Source of the DNA: a candidate division TA06 bacterium DG_78
GTDB taxonomy: Bacteria > Hydrothermota > Tepidihabitantia > SM23-42
NCBI GenBank assembly: GCA_001303225.1
Contig: LJNI01000027.1
Span: forward strand, 1 to 19,065
Length of the DNA: 19,065 nucleotides
Direction of reading: 5' to 3'
Shown: positions 7,663 to 15,891 of the stretch, in pieces
Layout of the letters: each line of letters opens with the position of its first letter
How positions within the stretch are numbered: the stretch's first letter is position 1
Translations under genes and position numbers: made by a program
Notes under the pieces: generated by a model
Databases searched by the model: none
What the model was told of the DNA's origin: nothing
What the model saw: the letters and a program-made list of their open reading frames with translations, nothing else

Positions 7663-10110
7663 TTAATCCGAAAAAAGTACAATGTTAAGTATCTTTTCAG
7701 GCACGTATATTGTCTTTTTTATCTTTTTATCCTTTAGATGACGTTGTATTTTCTCATCATCGAGTGCCCCTTTTATTACTTCTTTTTCACCCACACCTCT
7801 TGCTAATTCTAAATGTGAACGCACTTTACCATTGATTTGTATTACCACAGTAATACTTTTGCCGTCAATATAATTTTTGTCATAGTCAAGCCAGTTCTTT
7901 TTCACCAAAGTTCCTCTACCTCCAATACTTGACCATAGTTCGTCCGCCAGATGAGGTACGAATGGTGAGAGTAAGTTGATCAGTACGTAGACACCATATC
8001 CAAACACATCGCTCCTTTTTTGCCAACCATACAATTCATTCAAGAGCTCCCACAGTGCTGCTATTGCAGTATTAAATTTAAATGACTCCAAATCATTTGT
8101 GACCTTTACTATCGTCTGGTTGATTTTAATAAAGAGGTGTTCTTCATCCTGTGACAATTTTTCTGGTTTAGTCTGAGTAATCGATGATTTATTTTCTATA
8201 ACGAGACGGTACATTCGATTAATAAACCTCTCAGCACCGATAACTCCTTCATTACTCCATTCCATCTCTCTCTCTGGTGGCGCAGCAAAAATAATGGCTA
8301 GACGGGCAACATCAGCGCCGCGTTGCTTAGCAAACTGCCCAATAGGGACTATATTACCTTTTGATTTCGACATCTTCACGCCGCCTTTCAACACCATTCC
8401 TAAATTAAAGAGGTTTTTTGTCGGTTCATCAACTGGAATAAAACCCGCATCAAAGAGAACCTTGGTAAAGAATCTAAAATATATCAAATGTCCTGTAGCG
8501 TGTTCACTACTACCGCCTATGTACTGATCAACGGGAAGCCATGTATCAGCATTTACTTTCGAACAGAATTCTCGATCATTCTTTGGATCCAAGTAGCGGA
8601 GAAAATACCATGACGAACAGACAAAGGTATCCATAGTATCAGGATCCCGTTTTGCCTCTGCATTACATGTTGGGCATCTGGTATGAATAAAGCTTTCGAC
8701 CGCGGCAAGTGGTGACTTGCCTCGTGGTACAAAATCGGTGACTTCCTTCGGAAGGAGAACAGGTAATGCACTCTCAGGGGTCGGAACAGTACCACATCTA
8801 TCACAATAGATGATAGGTATTGGTGCACCCCAATATCGCTGGCGTGAAATCAACCAATCTTTTAATCTATAATTGACGCTCGCACCGCCGAGCTTTTTTT
8901 GTGCTAAAAAGTCAGTAACCGCAGCAATGCCCTTTTCCGAATTCATGCCAGTAAACTGTCCTGACTGAACCATGACACCGGGTTCTTCATAGGCGTGTTC
9001 CATGGTATCCAATTTCAATGTTTCACCAGGCGGGTTGATGACGATTTTGATGGGAAGATTGTACTTGCGAGCGAATTGGAAATCGCGTTCATCGTGAGCC
9101 GGCACCCCCATAACAACTCCACTCCCGTATTCGTATAGAACATAATCGGCAACAAAGATTGGTATTTTTTCATTATTTATTGGGTTTATTGCATGACAAC
9201 CTGTAAAGATTCCATCTTTTTCTTTTTCAATACGTTCTCTGTCTGTCTTCTTTGTCGCTTCTTTAACGTACTTTCGTACTTCATCTTCAGTTGAATTTCC
9301 CTTGATAAGATCATCGATCATCTGGTGTTCAGGTGCTACTGACATAAATGTCACACCGTAAATTGTATCTGGCCTCGTTGTAAACACATTGAACACCGCG
9401 TCTTTACCCTCGACCTTGAACACAATGTCACACCCCTCGCTTTTTCCGATCCAATTTTTCTGTATGATCTTTACATTCTCAGACCAACCACCAAGTTTCT
9501 CAAGATCTTTGAGTAATCTCTCCGCATATTCAGTAATTTTAAAAAACCACTGTTTCAATTTTTTCTTCTCAATTACAGCATCACAACGATAACACTTTCC
9601 TTCATCAACCTGTTCATTCGCCAAAACAGTAAGACAACTAGGACACCAATTTACATATGCTTCTTTCTTATAAGCGAGTCCTCTTTTATACAAGAGGAGA
9701 AACATCCACTGGGTCCATTTATAATAATCAGGAGAGCAGGTTATGATTTCTCTCTCCCAATCATAGCTGATCCCAAGTAATTTCAATGATGCATCCGAAA
9801 TCTGAATATTTTCCATAGTCCACTTTTCAGGATGTACGCCAGCTTTAATCGCTTGATTTTCCGCTGGTAACCCAAAGGCATCCCACCCAAAGGGATGGAG
9901 CACATCATATCCTTGTCTCATTTTAAATCGAGCATAGACATCACCAATTACATAATTTCTACCTGTTCCCATGTGAATGTCGCCAGATGGGTACGCGAAC
10001 ATTACGAGGTTATAAAATTTGTTTTTGGGATCGTTGTTGGTGACAAACACGTTTTGCTCATCCCAATATTTTTGCCACTTCTTTTCTACACTACTATGGT
10101 TATATTTCAT
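7663..10110 (-). CDS. leuS: Leucyl-tRNA synthetase
   Basis: Attaches leucine to tRNA-Leu in the cytoplasm; class I synthetase of bacterial type, 815 residues. Seen in order: N-terminal catalytic half with YPSGDIHMGT (40-49) and HPFGWDAFGLPAENQAI; the first zinc module (CPSC ... CYRC); the CP1 editing domain with TTRPDTIYGV and GVPAHDERD; the second Cys cluster (CDRCG ... CPTC); the KMSKS loop (GGVKMSKSKGN); and the anticodon-binding and C-terminal domains. The HIGH motif, normally HMGH in this enzyme, reads HMGT here. The ATG at 10110 is chosen because MKYNHSSVEKKWQKYW is the conserved N-terminus; upstream in-frame sequence overlaps the preceding gene. No clear ribosome binding site is present. 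Second to last gene of the holA operon, 31 nt after the zinc-ribbon gene. Confidence 0.97.
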   Translation of the reverse strand: MKYNHSSVEKKWQKYWDEQNVFVTNNDPKNKFYNLVMFAYPSGDIHMGTGRNYVIGDVYARFKMRQGYDVLHPFGWDAFGLPAENQAIKAGVHPEKWTMENIQISDASLKLLGISYDWEREIITCSPDYYKWTQWMFLLLYKRGLAYKKEAYVNWCPSCLTVLANEQVDEGKCYRCDAVIEKKKLKQWFFKITEYAERLLKDLEKLGGWSENVKIIQKNWIGKSEGCDIVFKVEGKDAVFNVFTTRPDTIYGVTFMSVAPEHQMIDDLIKGNSTEDEVRKYVKEATKKTDRERIEKEKDGIFTGCHAINPINNEKIPIFVADYVLYEYGSGVVMGVPAHDERDFQFARKYNLPIKIVINPPGETLKLDTMEHAYEEPGVMVQSGQFTGMNSEKGIAAVTDFLAQKKLGGASVNYRLKDWLISRQRYWGAPIPIIYCDRCGTVPTPESALPVLLPKEVTDFVPRGKSPLAAVESFIHTRCPTCNAEAKRDPDTMDTFVCSSWYFLRYLDPKNDREFCSKVNADTWLPVDQYIGGSSEHATGHLIYFRFFTKVLFDAGFIPVDEPTKNLFNLGMVLKGGVKMSKSKGNIVPIGQFAKQRGADVARLAIIFAAPPEREMEWSNEGVIGAERFINRMYRLVIENKSSITQTKPEKLSQDEEHLFIKINQTIVKVTNDLESFKFNTAIAALWELLNELYGWQKRSDVFGYGVYVLINLLSPFVPHLADELWSSIGGRGTLVKKNWLDYDKNYIDGKSITVVIQINGKVRSHLELARGVGEKEVIKGALDDEKIQRHLKDKKIKKTIYVPEKILNIVLFSD

Positions 10111-13608: not shown

Positions 13609-13636
13609 TTGACTTCCTATGTGTCACAGCTATACT
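13609..13636 (+). promoter_or_regulatory. Promoter of the sigma54 activator gene, leaderless GTG start
   Basis: -35 TTGACT (13609-13614), 16-nt spacer, -10 TATACT (13631-13636), then six bases TGCTCT and an in-frame GTG at 13643. The upstream ATG at 13619 lies between the two boxes and would not be transcribed from this promoter. Confidence 0.75.
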
Positions 13637-13642
13637 TGCTCT

Positions 13643-15139
13643 GTGGAAAGTATTATTAGGAAAATTGGCCGAGAAGAGCTCGAAATGCTCTTCCAAATGG
13701 CTAGCTCACTCTCTTCGACTCTGGAACTCTCAAAGATACTGAATATCATCATCGAAAGTGCGAAAACGTTACTCAAGGCAGAAGCTGCTTCATTGCTGTT
13801 ATTAGATGAAGCAACTGACGAGCTGTATTTTGCCAGTGTAACCGGTGATGTATCAGAACGGTTAAAAAATCTTACGGTACCATTAGACAAAGGTATTGCG
13901 GGTGCGTGTGTACGCACTGGAAAGGTAAAGATTGTGAATGATACTTCACATGATCGAGATTTTTATCCACAAATCGATAAGCAGACTGGGTTTGAGACAA
14001 AATCGATTATCGCAGCACCACTCACCATCTCAGGAAAGACAATCGGTGTTATTGAGGTCCTCAACAAAAAAAATAATAAACAGTGGACCGACGAAGAGAG
14101 AGAGCTGTTAGTTATCATCGCACTCCAGTCGGCGCAGGTTATCCAAAATGCTCAGACACACCTCCTTATGTGTGAACAACAAAATTTGTTAAGGAGTGAA
14201 ATCGATGCACGTTATGCAATCATCTCTACGAGCACACAACTCAAAGAGGTACTAAAACTCGCTGAGAAAGTTGCCGCGAGTGCTACTACTGTTTTACTCA
14301 TCGGTGAAAATGGTACTGGTAAAGAATTAATCGCGCGCTCTATTCACCGCTTGAGTTCGAGGAAAGAAAGTCCGTTTATATCTGTAAATTGTGCGGCAAT
14401 TCCGAACACCCTACTGGAAAGCGAGCTCTTTGGCTACGAGAGAGGCGCTTTTACCGGCGCTACAAGTCAACGTAAAGGGAGATTTGAACTCGCTAATAAA
14501 GGAACAATATTTCTTGATGAAATTGGCGATCTACCACTCGAGACACAGAGTAAATTGTTAAGGGTATTACAGGAACGAGAATTTGAACGCCTCGGAGGTA
14601 CAAAAACCATCAAGATCGATGTACGAATTATTGCTGCGACAAATCAAAATCTCGAAGAGAAGATTGAACATAAATTGTTCCGCGAAGATCTTTTTTACAG
14701 ATTGAATGTATTCCCAATTAGAATTCCTCCACTTCGCGAACGTAAAGAGGATATTCCCCTCCTCGCTCATCATTTCCTATCGATCTATGCACGAGAGATG
14801 AATAAAAATGTAACAAGAATCAGTACCGATGTTATGGATCGATTACTCAATTATCCTTGGCCAGGCAATGTCAGAGAATTACAAAATGTTTTGGAAAGGG
14901 CTGTTGTATTAGCCAATAGTGAAACAATCGACAGCACATGTCTTATGCTTCCTTCAAAACCGAGTGCTGAACGTGCAGCACCTGGCGAAGGACTTAGAGA
15001 GGTTGTTGAGAGGTTCAAGATGAATTTCATCCGCGAAACGATCCAACGGTGCGGAGGTAACCAAACAGAGGCGAGTAAAATTTTGAAGATTCAACCGTCG
15101 TATCTTTCCCGTATGCTCCATAAGTCAAAAAAATCGTAG
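13643..15139 (+). CDS. GAF-domain sigma54-dependent transcriptional activator
   Basis: Bacterial enhancer-binding protein of 498 residues from the GTG at 13643. Domain order is a short helical lead, a GAF sensor domain (about 20-165), an AAA+ sigma54-interaction domain (about 185-415) and a C-terminal Fis-type helix-turn-helix (about 450-498, ending ...EASKILKIQPSYLSRMLHK). Walker A is GENGTGKE at 221, the sigma54-contact loop GAFTGA at 268, and Walker B GTIFLDEIGD follows. There is no receiver domain, so it probably senses a small ligand through GAF rather than phosphorylation. The GTG is preferred over the ATG at 13619 because of the promoter position. Its probable target is the convergent beta-barrel gene at 15750, which has a sigma54 promoter and twin upstream inverted repeats. 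Confidence 0.95.
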   Translation: MESIIRKIGREELEMLFQMASSLSSTLELSKILNIIIESAKTLLKAEAASLLLLDEATDELYFASVTGDVSERLKNLTVPLDKGIAGACVRTGKVKIVNDTSHDRDFYPQIDKQTGFETKSIIAAPLTISGKTIGVIEVLNKKNNKQWTDEERELLVIIALQSAQVIQNAQTHLLMCEQQNLLRSEIDARYAIISTSTQLKEVLKLAEKVAASATTVLLIGENGTGKELIARSIHRLSSRKESPFISVNCAAIPNTLLESELFGYERGAFTGATSQRKGRFELANKGTIFLDEIGDLPLETQSKLLRVLQEREFERLGGTKTIKIDVRIIAATNQNLEEKIEHKLFREDLFYRLNVFPIRIPPLRERKEDIPLLAHHFLSIYAREMNKNVTRISTDVMDRLLNYPWPGNVRELQNVLERAVVLANSETIDSTCLMLPSKPSAERAAPGEGLREVVERFKMNFIRETIQRCGGNQTEASKILKIQPSYLSRMLHKSKKS

Positions 15140-15207
15140 CTCACAAAAATCAATTATATATTCCACTCTATGAGAAAGATATAACCGGATTCGGGACACG
15201 AAGAAGA

Positions 15208-15750
15208 CTACCAATTAATGTAGTAATTTAATCCTGCCCATACCATTTCAATACCATATTCTTGTGTCAATCCACAATAACGATACTGACAATCGAGCGA
15301 CATCTTCTCGCCAAAGAGAATAGTTAGTCCAGCAAACGCTGTACTGTTGAGGCGTGGAGATGATGATTCGATATACTCATTCAACTGGCCATTCTTTATT
15401 GCATCAGCGATATCGACGTCATTGCAGAACAAAAGTGTTCCCTTAATACCGAAAGCCGGAGCAATGAAAAATCGACCAAGCCGTGGCCGAAGAGTAATGC
15501 CAAGACCGACACCAGCTGATGATGAGCTATGAGATGGATTATTAAGGTAAGTGATGAATGGTTCAAGATAGACATGTGGCAACGCCTCAGCCTGAACCGA
15601 AAGTTCAGCGCCGTAGTACAGGTCTAAAAACTGTTCAGGAGTGAGTGTTTCGTGGTGATTAGGATACTGGCCACCTCCAGCAAGACCAATTCCAAGTCTG
15701 CCTGCAAAGGTACATGAAACAATAATGAGGAAAAGTGTGATTTTTTTCAT
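15208..15750 (-). CDS. Small outer-membrane beta-barrel protein under sigma54 control
   Basis: Protein of 180 residues with a signal peptide MKKITLFLIIVSCTFAG. The mature part has alternating hydrophobic strands such as AGVGLGITLRPRLGRFFIAPAFGI and ends in an aromatic residue (...WAGLNYYINW), as outer-membrane barrels do. No specific family is recognised; length suits an 8-strand barrel of the OmpA-like or 'outer membrane protein beta-barrel' kind. GGAGGTG lies about four bases before the ATG. A -24/-12 sigma54 promoter is located 30 nt upstream of the start codon. The gene is convergent with the sigma54 activator gene, 68 nt from its stop, with no intrinsic terminator between them. Confidence 0.78.
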   Translation of the reverse strand: MKKITLFLIIVSCTFAGRLGIGLAGGGQYPNHHETLTPEQFLDLYYGAELSVQAEALPHVYLEPFITYLNNPSHSSSSAGVGLGITLRPRLGRFFIAPAFGIKGTLLFCNDVDIADAIKNGQLNEYIESSSPRLNSTAFAGLTILFGEKMSLDCQYRYCGLTQEYGIEMVWAGLNYYINW

Positions 15751-15780
15751 GCTACACCTCCATGCACATCATATGTGATA

Positions 15781-15796
15781 TGCAAAAGCCATGCCA
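15781..15796 (-). promoter_or_regulatory. Sigma54 promoter (-24/-12) of the beta-barrel gene
   Basis: The minus strand reads TGGCATGGCTTTTGCA (15796-15781). It fits TGGCAC-N5-TTGCA with one mismatch and exactly ten bases between the GG and GC dinucleotides. The predicted start near 15770 gives a leader of about 20 nt that contains the ribosome binding site. Confidence 0.85.
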
Positions 15797-15803
15797 CCCT
15801 TAA

Positions 15804-15815
15804 AGACTTAAGTCT
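15804..15815. promoter_or_regulatory. 12-bp palindrome just upstream of the sigma54 promoter
   Basis: Perfect palindrome AGACTTAAGTCT centred about 40 bp upstream of the predicted start site, between the -24 box and the twin inverted repeats. It could bind a second regulator or a DNA-bending protein. Confidence 0.4.
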
Positions 15816-15856
15816 ATTGAATATAGAACCATTCATTCCTTGATGTCTGCTTATAT

Positions 15857-15891
15857 TATACAAAAGTATAGCATCTTATCTAAAAAGATAA
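15857..15891. promoter_or_regulatory. Twin inverted repeats, putative enhancer sites for the sigma54 activator
   Basis: TATAC-AAAA-GTATA (15857-15870) and TTATCT-AAAA-AGATAA (15876-15891) share the pattern TATnYAAAARnATA. Their centres are exactly 20 bp apart, about two helical turns, and lie about 93 and 113 bp upstream of the predicted sigma54 start site. This is the normal distance range for activator-binding sites. Confidence 0.65.

Follow-up and report, generated by a model that had tools for sequence, protein, structure and literature searches.

The window, a 19,065-nt stretch of DNA that is contig C79 in an assembly of 2.09 Mb and 79.5% completeness, carries a GAF-type sigma54 activator gene next to the gene of a small predicted outer-membrane beta-barrel, and comparison with relatives turned the proposed circuit between them from a plausible idea into a prediction with good support. 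Named relatives of its proteins carry the label 'candidate division WOR-3 bacterium' or simply 'bacterium', and the source is thus probably a member of that lineage. Computation gave the parts themselves, how they are conserved and spaced, and the joint presence or absence of activator and barrel. The activator would be made from its own sigma70 promoter, would receive a small-molecule or partner signal through its GAF domain, and would then assemble on tandem enhancer sites lying on the same DNA face, remodelling RNA polymerase-sigma54 waiting at a -24/-12 element; the remodelled polymerase would transcribe the barrel gene. A small envelope regulon is proposed, with the barrel as its core target; in relatives, members of this activator family also seem to control a large exported protein, a lipoprotein and other proteins. 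The palindrome AGACTTAAGTCT, adjoining the -24 box, is probably where a second regulator acts. Taken as a whole, this mechanism is judged highly likely; within it, we infer binding and activation, as well as the signal and what the palindrome does.

The activator gene was located at 13643..15139 (+), with a GTG start and a stop ending at 15139. Its product scored above the Pfam cut-offs for GAF, Sigma54_activat (PF00158, 251.9 bits) and AAA_lid_14, and the GAFTGA motif of the AAA+ sigma54-interaction domain was read in the translation, which confirmed the class assigned in the first-pass annotation. A C-terminal Fis-type HTH was counted as present, with HTH_8 at 21.7 bits standing just under the cut-off of 22. 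The HTH segment IQP[ST]YLSR was identical in all 22 close and distant homologues read (the comparison took in 22 of 23 rows, the remaining one ending short of the HTH; L133-L135 were left out). Mechanical ORF calling placed the start at ATG 13619; the orthologues begin at the codon equivalent to GTG 13643, in agreement with the start chosen at first pass. A sigma70-like promoter (TTGACT, 16 nt, TATACT) was identified at 13609..13636 (+) by consensus scan and comparison of orthologues, with the TTGAC -35 in 16 of 16 orthologues and a TATAMT -10 likewise in 16 of 16, both read by eye. The -10 element ends 6 nt before the GTG in the window, and by eye its end lies 5-7 nt ahead of the start codon in 15 of the 16 orthologues, L123 differing. 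Since the -10 ends so close to the GTG, the activator mRNA may be leaderless (region 13609-13645, +).

The best NCBIfam scores of the activator were to NifA, followed by PrdR and NorR. The equivalog cut-offs were not reached for NifA (TIGR01817; 418.2 against 528.85 bits) or NorR (NF003451; 377.6 against 476 bits), and the score also fell under the FhlA cut-off. By sequence similarity, the solved GAF domains nearest to that of the activator were those of an adenylate cyclase (1ykd), a metal-dependent phosphohydrolase (4mcw) and phosphodiesterases (5w10, PDE2A). We infer ligand control of the circuit from the GAF domain; that the signal might be a cyclic nucleotide is a lead rather than a result. 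Among distant homologues, the activator gene was seen by eye directly downstream of a SurA/PpiC-like periplasmic protein gene at seven loci (L125-L131, families f4 and f8), a neighbour that would fit an envelope role. The genes form an apparent operon at all seven, and at six of them (L126-L131) the activator homologue is followed by a membrane-protein gene and then a geranylgeranyl-reductase-like gene (by eye).

The barrel gene, at 15208..15750 (-), is convergent with the activator gene and encodes 180 residues with eight predicted strands, a signal-peptide-like N-terminus and a C-terminal W. An AlphaFold2 model (pLDDT 85.2) resembled the OprF, NspA and OmpA folds, which supports the earlier proposal of a small outer-membrane barrel as target and points to an eight-stranded barrel with a signal peptide; identity to the eight-stranded barrels of the OprF N-domain, NspA and OmpA was just 11-14%. 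The fold alignment drew on 20 homologues, a 139-aa piece (P0004) being left out. Searches of the barrel against Pfam and NCBIfam returned 0 families, so no OmpA or OmpX sequence-family match, and a search against named genome contigs returned no relative. Upstream of the barrel is a 173-nt gap, the far end of which is the stop of the last of four same-strand genes, the first of these encoding a DUF6754 protein. Outward from the barrel start codon, the gap holds a GGAGG ribosome-binding site (15757..15761, -), the -24/-12 element, the palindrome AGACTTAAGTCT and two related sites.

The sigma54 element TGGCATGGCTTTTGCA lies at 15781..15796 (-) and is an exact consensus match, so that the exact -24/-12 spacing claimed for it earlier was borne out. 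Exact matches to TGGCAYRN4TTGCW number 18 across the 2.09 Mb, this one included, and with at most one mismatch 121 sites were found versus 35 for the reversed control. GG at -25/-24 and GC at -13/-12 were invariant in 12 of 12 representatives, which agrees with a sigma54 promoter, the conservation profile being built from 12 of the 16 orthologues (L049, L050, L051 and L057 left out). With the C of GC (15782) taken as -12, transcription is predicted to start at ~15770. A gene for RpoN is present in this genome.

The main, promoter-proximal enhancer site TATACAAAAGTATA occupies 15857..15870 and is the core of CTATACTTTTGTATAA on the - strand. The second site, TATCTAAAAAGATA (TTATCTTTTTAGATAA on the - strand), occupies 15877..15890, 20 bp upstream of the first. 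Their centres fall at ~-94 and ~-114, within one base of the ~-93 and ~-113 given previously, and the spacing of 20 bp stood. The inverted-repeat pattern of the first-pass annotation matched exactly at these two places in the window and nowhere else in it; among 20,000 random intergenic-like sequences none had two matches and 0.12% had one. Because that pattern was built from the sites themselves, conservation is the real test of the repeats. At 14 of the 16 loci the main site starts 75-78 bp ahead of the -24 box, and at the other two, both of one genus, 95 bp ahead of it. When the enhancer consensus was slid along each of the 16 loci, the second copy gave a single clear peak exactly 20 bp upstream (11.88 of 20 positions matched on average, the runner-up offset reaching 9.19). 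A second copy matching at 12 or more of 20 positions was present at -20 in 10 of the 16 loci and at +20, downstream, in one more; in L058 the second copy is on the other side of the main site. The outer site was weak in 5 to 6 of 16 loci, with poor matches (4 to 9 of 20) in L056, L057, L058 and L059. Palindromy followed the same order, with a mean of 5.1 paired positions of nine for the main site and 3.5 for the second, versus 2.4 for the control. By these comparisons the predicted tandem enhancer, two helical turns apart, is real, its outer copy being the weaker. A search of the window's genome for the single-site pattern with at most two mismatches gave no excess (164 places versus 168 for the control), and a lone enhancer site is therefore uninformative.

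The palindrome AGACTTAAGTCT (15804..15815) went unmentioned at first pass. In 11 of the 16 orthologues it starts 19-20 bp ahead of the -24 box, with 11 or all 12 of its positions matched; in L053, L055, L056, L057 and L058 it is missing or only traces are present. Families f1 and f2 (27 genomes) hold 51 copies versus 7 of the reversed word, and the other 34 genomes 2 versus 6, so the enrichment is confined to the order. In the window's own genome, AGACTTAAGTNT was found at 17 places (L063-L079) versus 0 for the control; many of these precede genes with hydrophobic N-termini, some belonging to sigma54 promoters and others sitting right at sigma70-like -10 elements. Exceptions were found in other genomes, where the palindromes L177, L181, L182, L186 and L193-L195 precede genes without a signal-peptide-like start. 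The palindrome may be the operator of a second regulator, and it probably brings in a separate regulator common to many exported-protein genes. The circuit thus does not appear closed, as AGACTTAAGTCT looks like the operator of a shared, separate regulator.

DNA-bending proteins often sit in the stretch just upstream of the -24 box. The fixed position of AGACTTAAGTCT in the 11 orthologues would suit an architectural or accessory site of the same sigma54 circuit, with no second-regulator operator. This reading seems unlikely, as the palindrome is also found at sigma70-like promoters without a sigma54 site and in 7 of 8 genomes of genus g5, all of which are without this activator (in 2 of the 7 the control count was equal).

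The distribution of the two genes was compared in 61 genomes, the window's own and 60 relatives. The barrel was found in 16 of them, namely 12 of the 23 genomes of the same family, counting the window's own, and all 4 of the sister family. The activator was found at 69% identity or more in exactly these 16. Homologues at 39-52% identity were found in nine further genomes, and the barrel was found in none of the 45 genomes without a close (at least 69%) activator. Fisher's test of co-occurrence, ignoring kinship, gave p values of 5e-15 overall and 7e-7 within the family. The two genes adjoin in 12 of 12 same-family genomes (in G014 the activator is split over two contigs). In all 4 sister-family genomes they occupy separate contigs, and there the unlinked barrel retains an enhancer, the palindrome and a -24/-12 element. 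The sister family provides the strongest evidence, since the association of activator and barrel outlives the loss of linkage. The description of the circuit as self-contained accordingly found no support as a general property: in the sister family the two genes are apart, and a third conserved palindrome, shared with other genes, probably brings in another regulator. Across the 15 other orthologous loci, none kept the activator while losing the promoter and main enhancer; conservation extended to the -24/-12 element and the main enhancer, and the outer site was the part that was weak in some loci.

Across 65 genomes of the class, a pattern combining the enhancer core with the -24/-12 element matched 16 times and its reversed control 0 times, by which a chance origin of the layout was rejected; 11 of the matches are at barrel promoters and 5 elsewhere. 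A second such pattern gave 25 matches versus 0, in 15 of the 25 genomes that have the activator family and 1 of the 36 that lack it. These comprised 8 barrel promoters, 1 second promoter copy (G003), 2 lipoprotein promoters, 2 of the large exported protein, 9 places in family f4, 1 weak match preceding a further exported-protein gene (L170) and 2 apparently intracoding matches, L166 and L167 appearing by eye to lie inside coding sequence. A looser pattern was found in 16 of 16 genomes of the order with the activator and 2 of 11 without it (27 genomes; control 0), several of its 29 rows looking like chance. The enhancer sites in the distant family f4 were much alike. In G003, near position 1929758 of C1 (L151, L172), a second copy of the promoter region and of the gene run upstream was observed, in which the stretch after the promoter reads N.

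The window's genome offers other candidates for the enhancers, the sigma54-interaction domain being whole at 13 places and partial at 2 contig ends; 2 further weak matches (25.6 bits) may be other AAA proteins. It is nevertheless improbable that the promoter is a sigma54 promoter whose enhancers serve one of these other activators, with the neighbouring activator controlling something else: in every one of the 61 genomes barrel and activator were either both found or both missing, also where unlinked, and the first pattern's enhancer-promoter matches tracked the activator family, being found in 14 of 25 genomes with it and 0 of 36 without it (61 genomes, kinship ignored). It is very improbable that a sigma70 promoter drives the barrel and that the repeats are chance AT-rich sequence, for, of the sigma70-like sites found by scan, the candidate inside the enhancer (TTTAGA-18-TATAAT, 15884-15855, -) was rejected with its TATAAT in just 2 of 16 orthologues, and the enhancer is conserved together with its spacing and the -24/-12 element.

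In relatives, the enhancer and sigma54 element, at the same spacing, were found before a lipoprotein gene in the sister family (L157, L158), and the same layout before a large, apparently exported protein in the same family (L159, L160, L143). For the large exported protein, 15 of 30 loci were taken into the comparison. A sigma54-like site was present at 8 of these 15, and at 5 of the 8 it was accompanied by an enhancer at -74 or -75 with at least 11 of 16 positions matched. Several loci also had a downstream sigma70-like promoter (L199, L201, L203, L206, L208 and others), and in the window's genome (L202) just a sigma70-like promoter was seen by eye. Of the nine places in family f4, five precede an ORF with a signal-peptide-like start (L152-L155, L169), L152 and L153 being the same gene in two species; the other four comprise one sugar-epimerase-like gene, one short frame without a signal-like start and two places with no called frame, all nine being assessed by eye. 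The wider regulon in relatives thus appears broader than the barrel alone.

In the window's genome, the loosest pattern search returned the barrel and a glutamate dehydrogenase-like promoter, which has its own activator and a different palindrome, and the barrel was the sole target found by the pattern searches of this 79.5%-complete assembly. The claim of one target stood to that extent, and gave way in relatives, where the layout precedes other, mostly exported, proteins. The glutamate dehydrogenase-like gene lies at ~8638-9683 of G000:C154 (L032, L010), with an exact sigma54 site and an adjoining activator gene, and its promoter carries the upstream palindrome TTATAGCAAAATGCTATAA. Exact sigma54 sites were found within ~2 kb of an activator domain on C23, C83, C110, C135, C154 and C164; with six further contigs showing such proximity, sigma54 promoters commonly have an activator as neighbour in this genome. 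At five other exact sigma54 promoters of the genome (L019, L024, L029, L030, L034) a AGACTTAAGTGTCTCATAATGAGACA-like motif was observed ~70-100 bp upstream, probably marking the sites of a different activator. Several of these promoters stand before long repeat proteins with signal-like starts.

A broader reading is a two-input envelope programme, in which the GAF sigma54 activator with its tandem TTATACTTTTGTATAA and a second DNA-binding protein at AGACTTAAGTCT would meet at the barrel promoter, and in which the GAF domain might read a cyclic nucleotide. This is a serious possibility that we would hold only tentatively. If true, AGACTTAAGTCT would be an order-wide mark, mostly before exported-protein genes, at both sigma54 and sigma70 promoters. 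The activator, two sites, promoter and target form an experimentally ready regulatory unit with a conserved footprint strong enough to predict which bases matter, and AGACTTAAGTCT, shared across the order, gives a handle on a probable second regulator.

Searches of the open-access literature for GACTTAAGTC returned nothing relevant by title, and searches covering WOR-3/Stahlbacteria sigma-54 and GAF with outer-membrane proteins found no description of this circuit among the matches listed, which for WOR-3 with sigma-54 made no mention of WOR-3; no open-access paper on Stahlbacteria with sigma-54 was found. Sigma54 has been described as a controller of the bacterial exterior, with exopolysaccharide, flagella, lipids, LPS, lipoproteins and peptidoglycan among the features named (PMC3162934). 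The predicted circuit fits this theme, the abstract of that work naming neither this barrel nor this lineage. Comparative genomics of sigma54 regulons, as outlined in PMC4641369, assigned conserved inverted repeats upstream of sigma54 promoters to their activators, and GAF one-component activators are listed among those regulons. The logic is the same as here; an example there, from Desulfovibrio, has the different motif yGTCA-N6-TGACr. The one-component activators NifA, NorR and FhlA share with the window's activator a GAF sensor, an AAA+ domain with GAFTGA and a Fis-type HTH, and the window's activator would, like them, act on a -24/-12 promoter from upstream sites. It differs from them in scoring under their cut-offs and in its target, and the sites of NifA and NorR differ from the enhancer TTATACTTTTGTATAA. 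The circuit is a fresh example of an already known type of switch.
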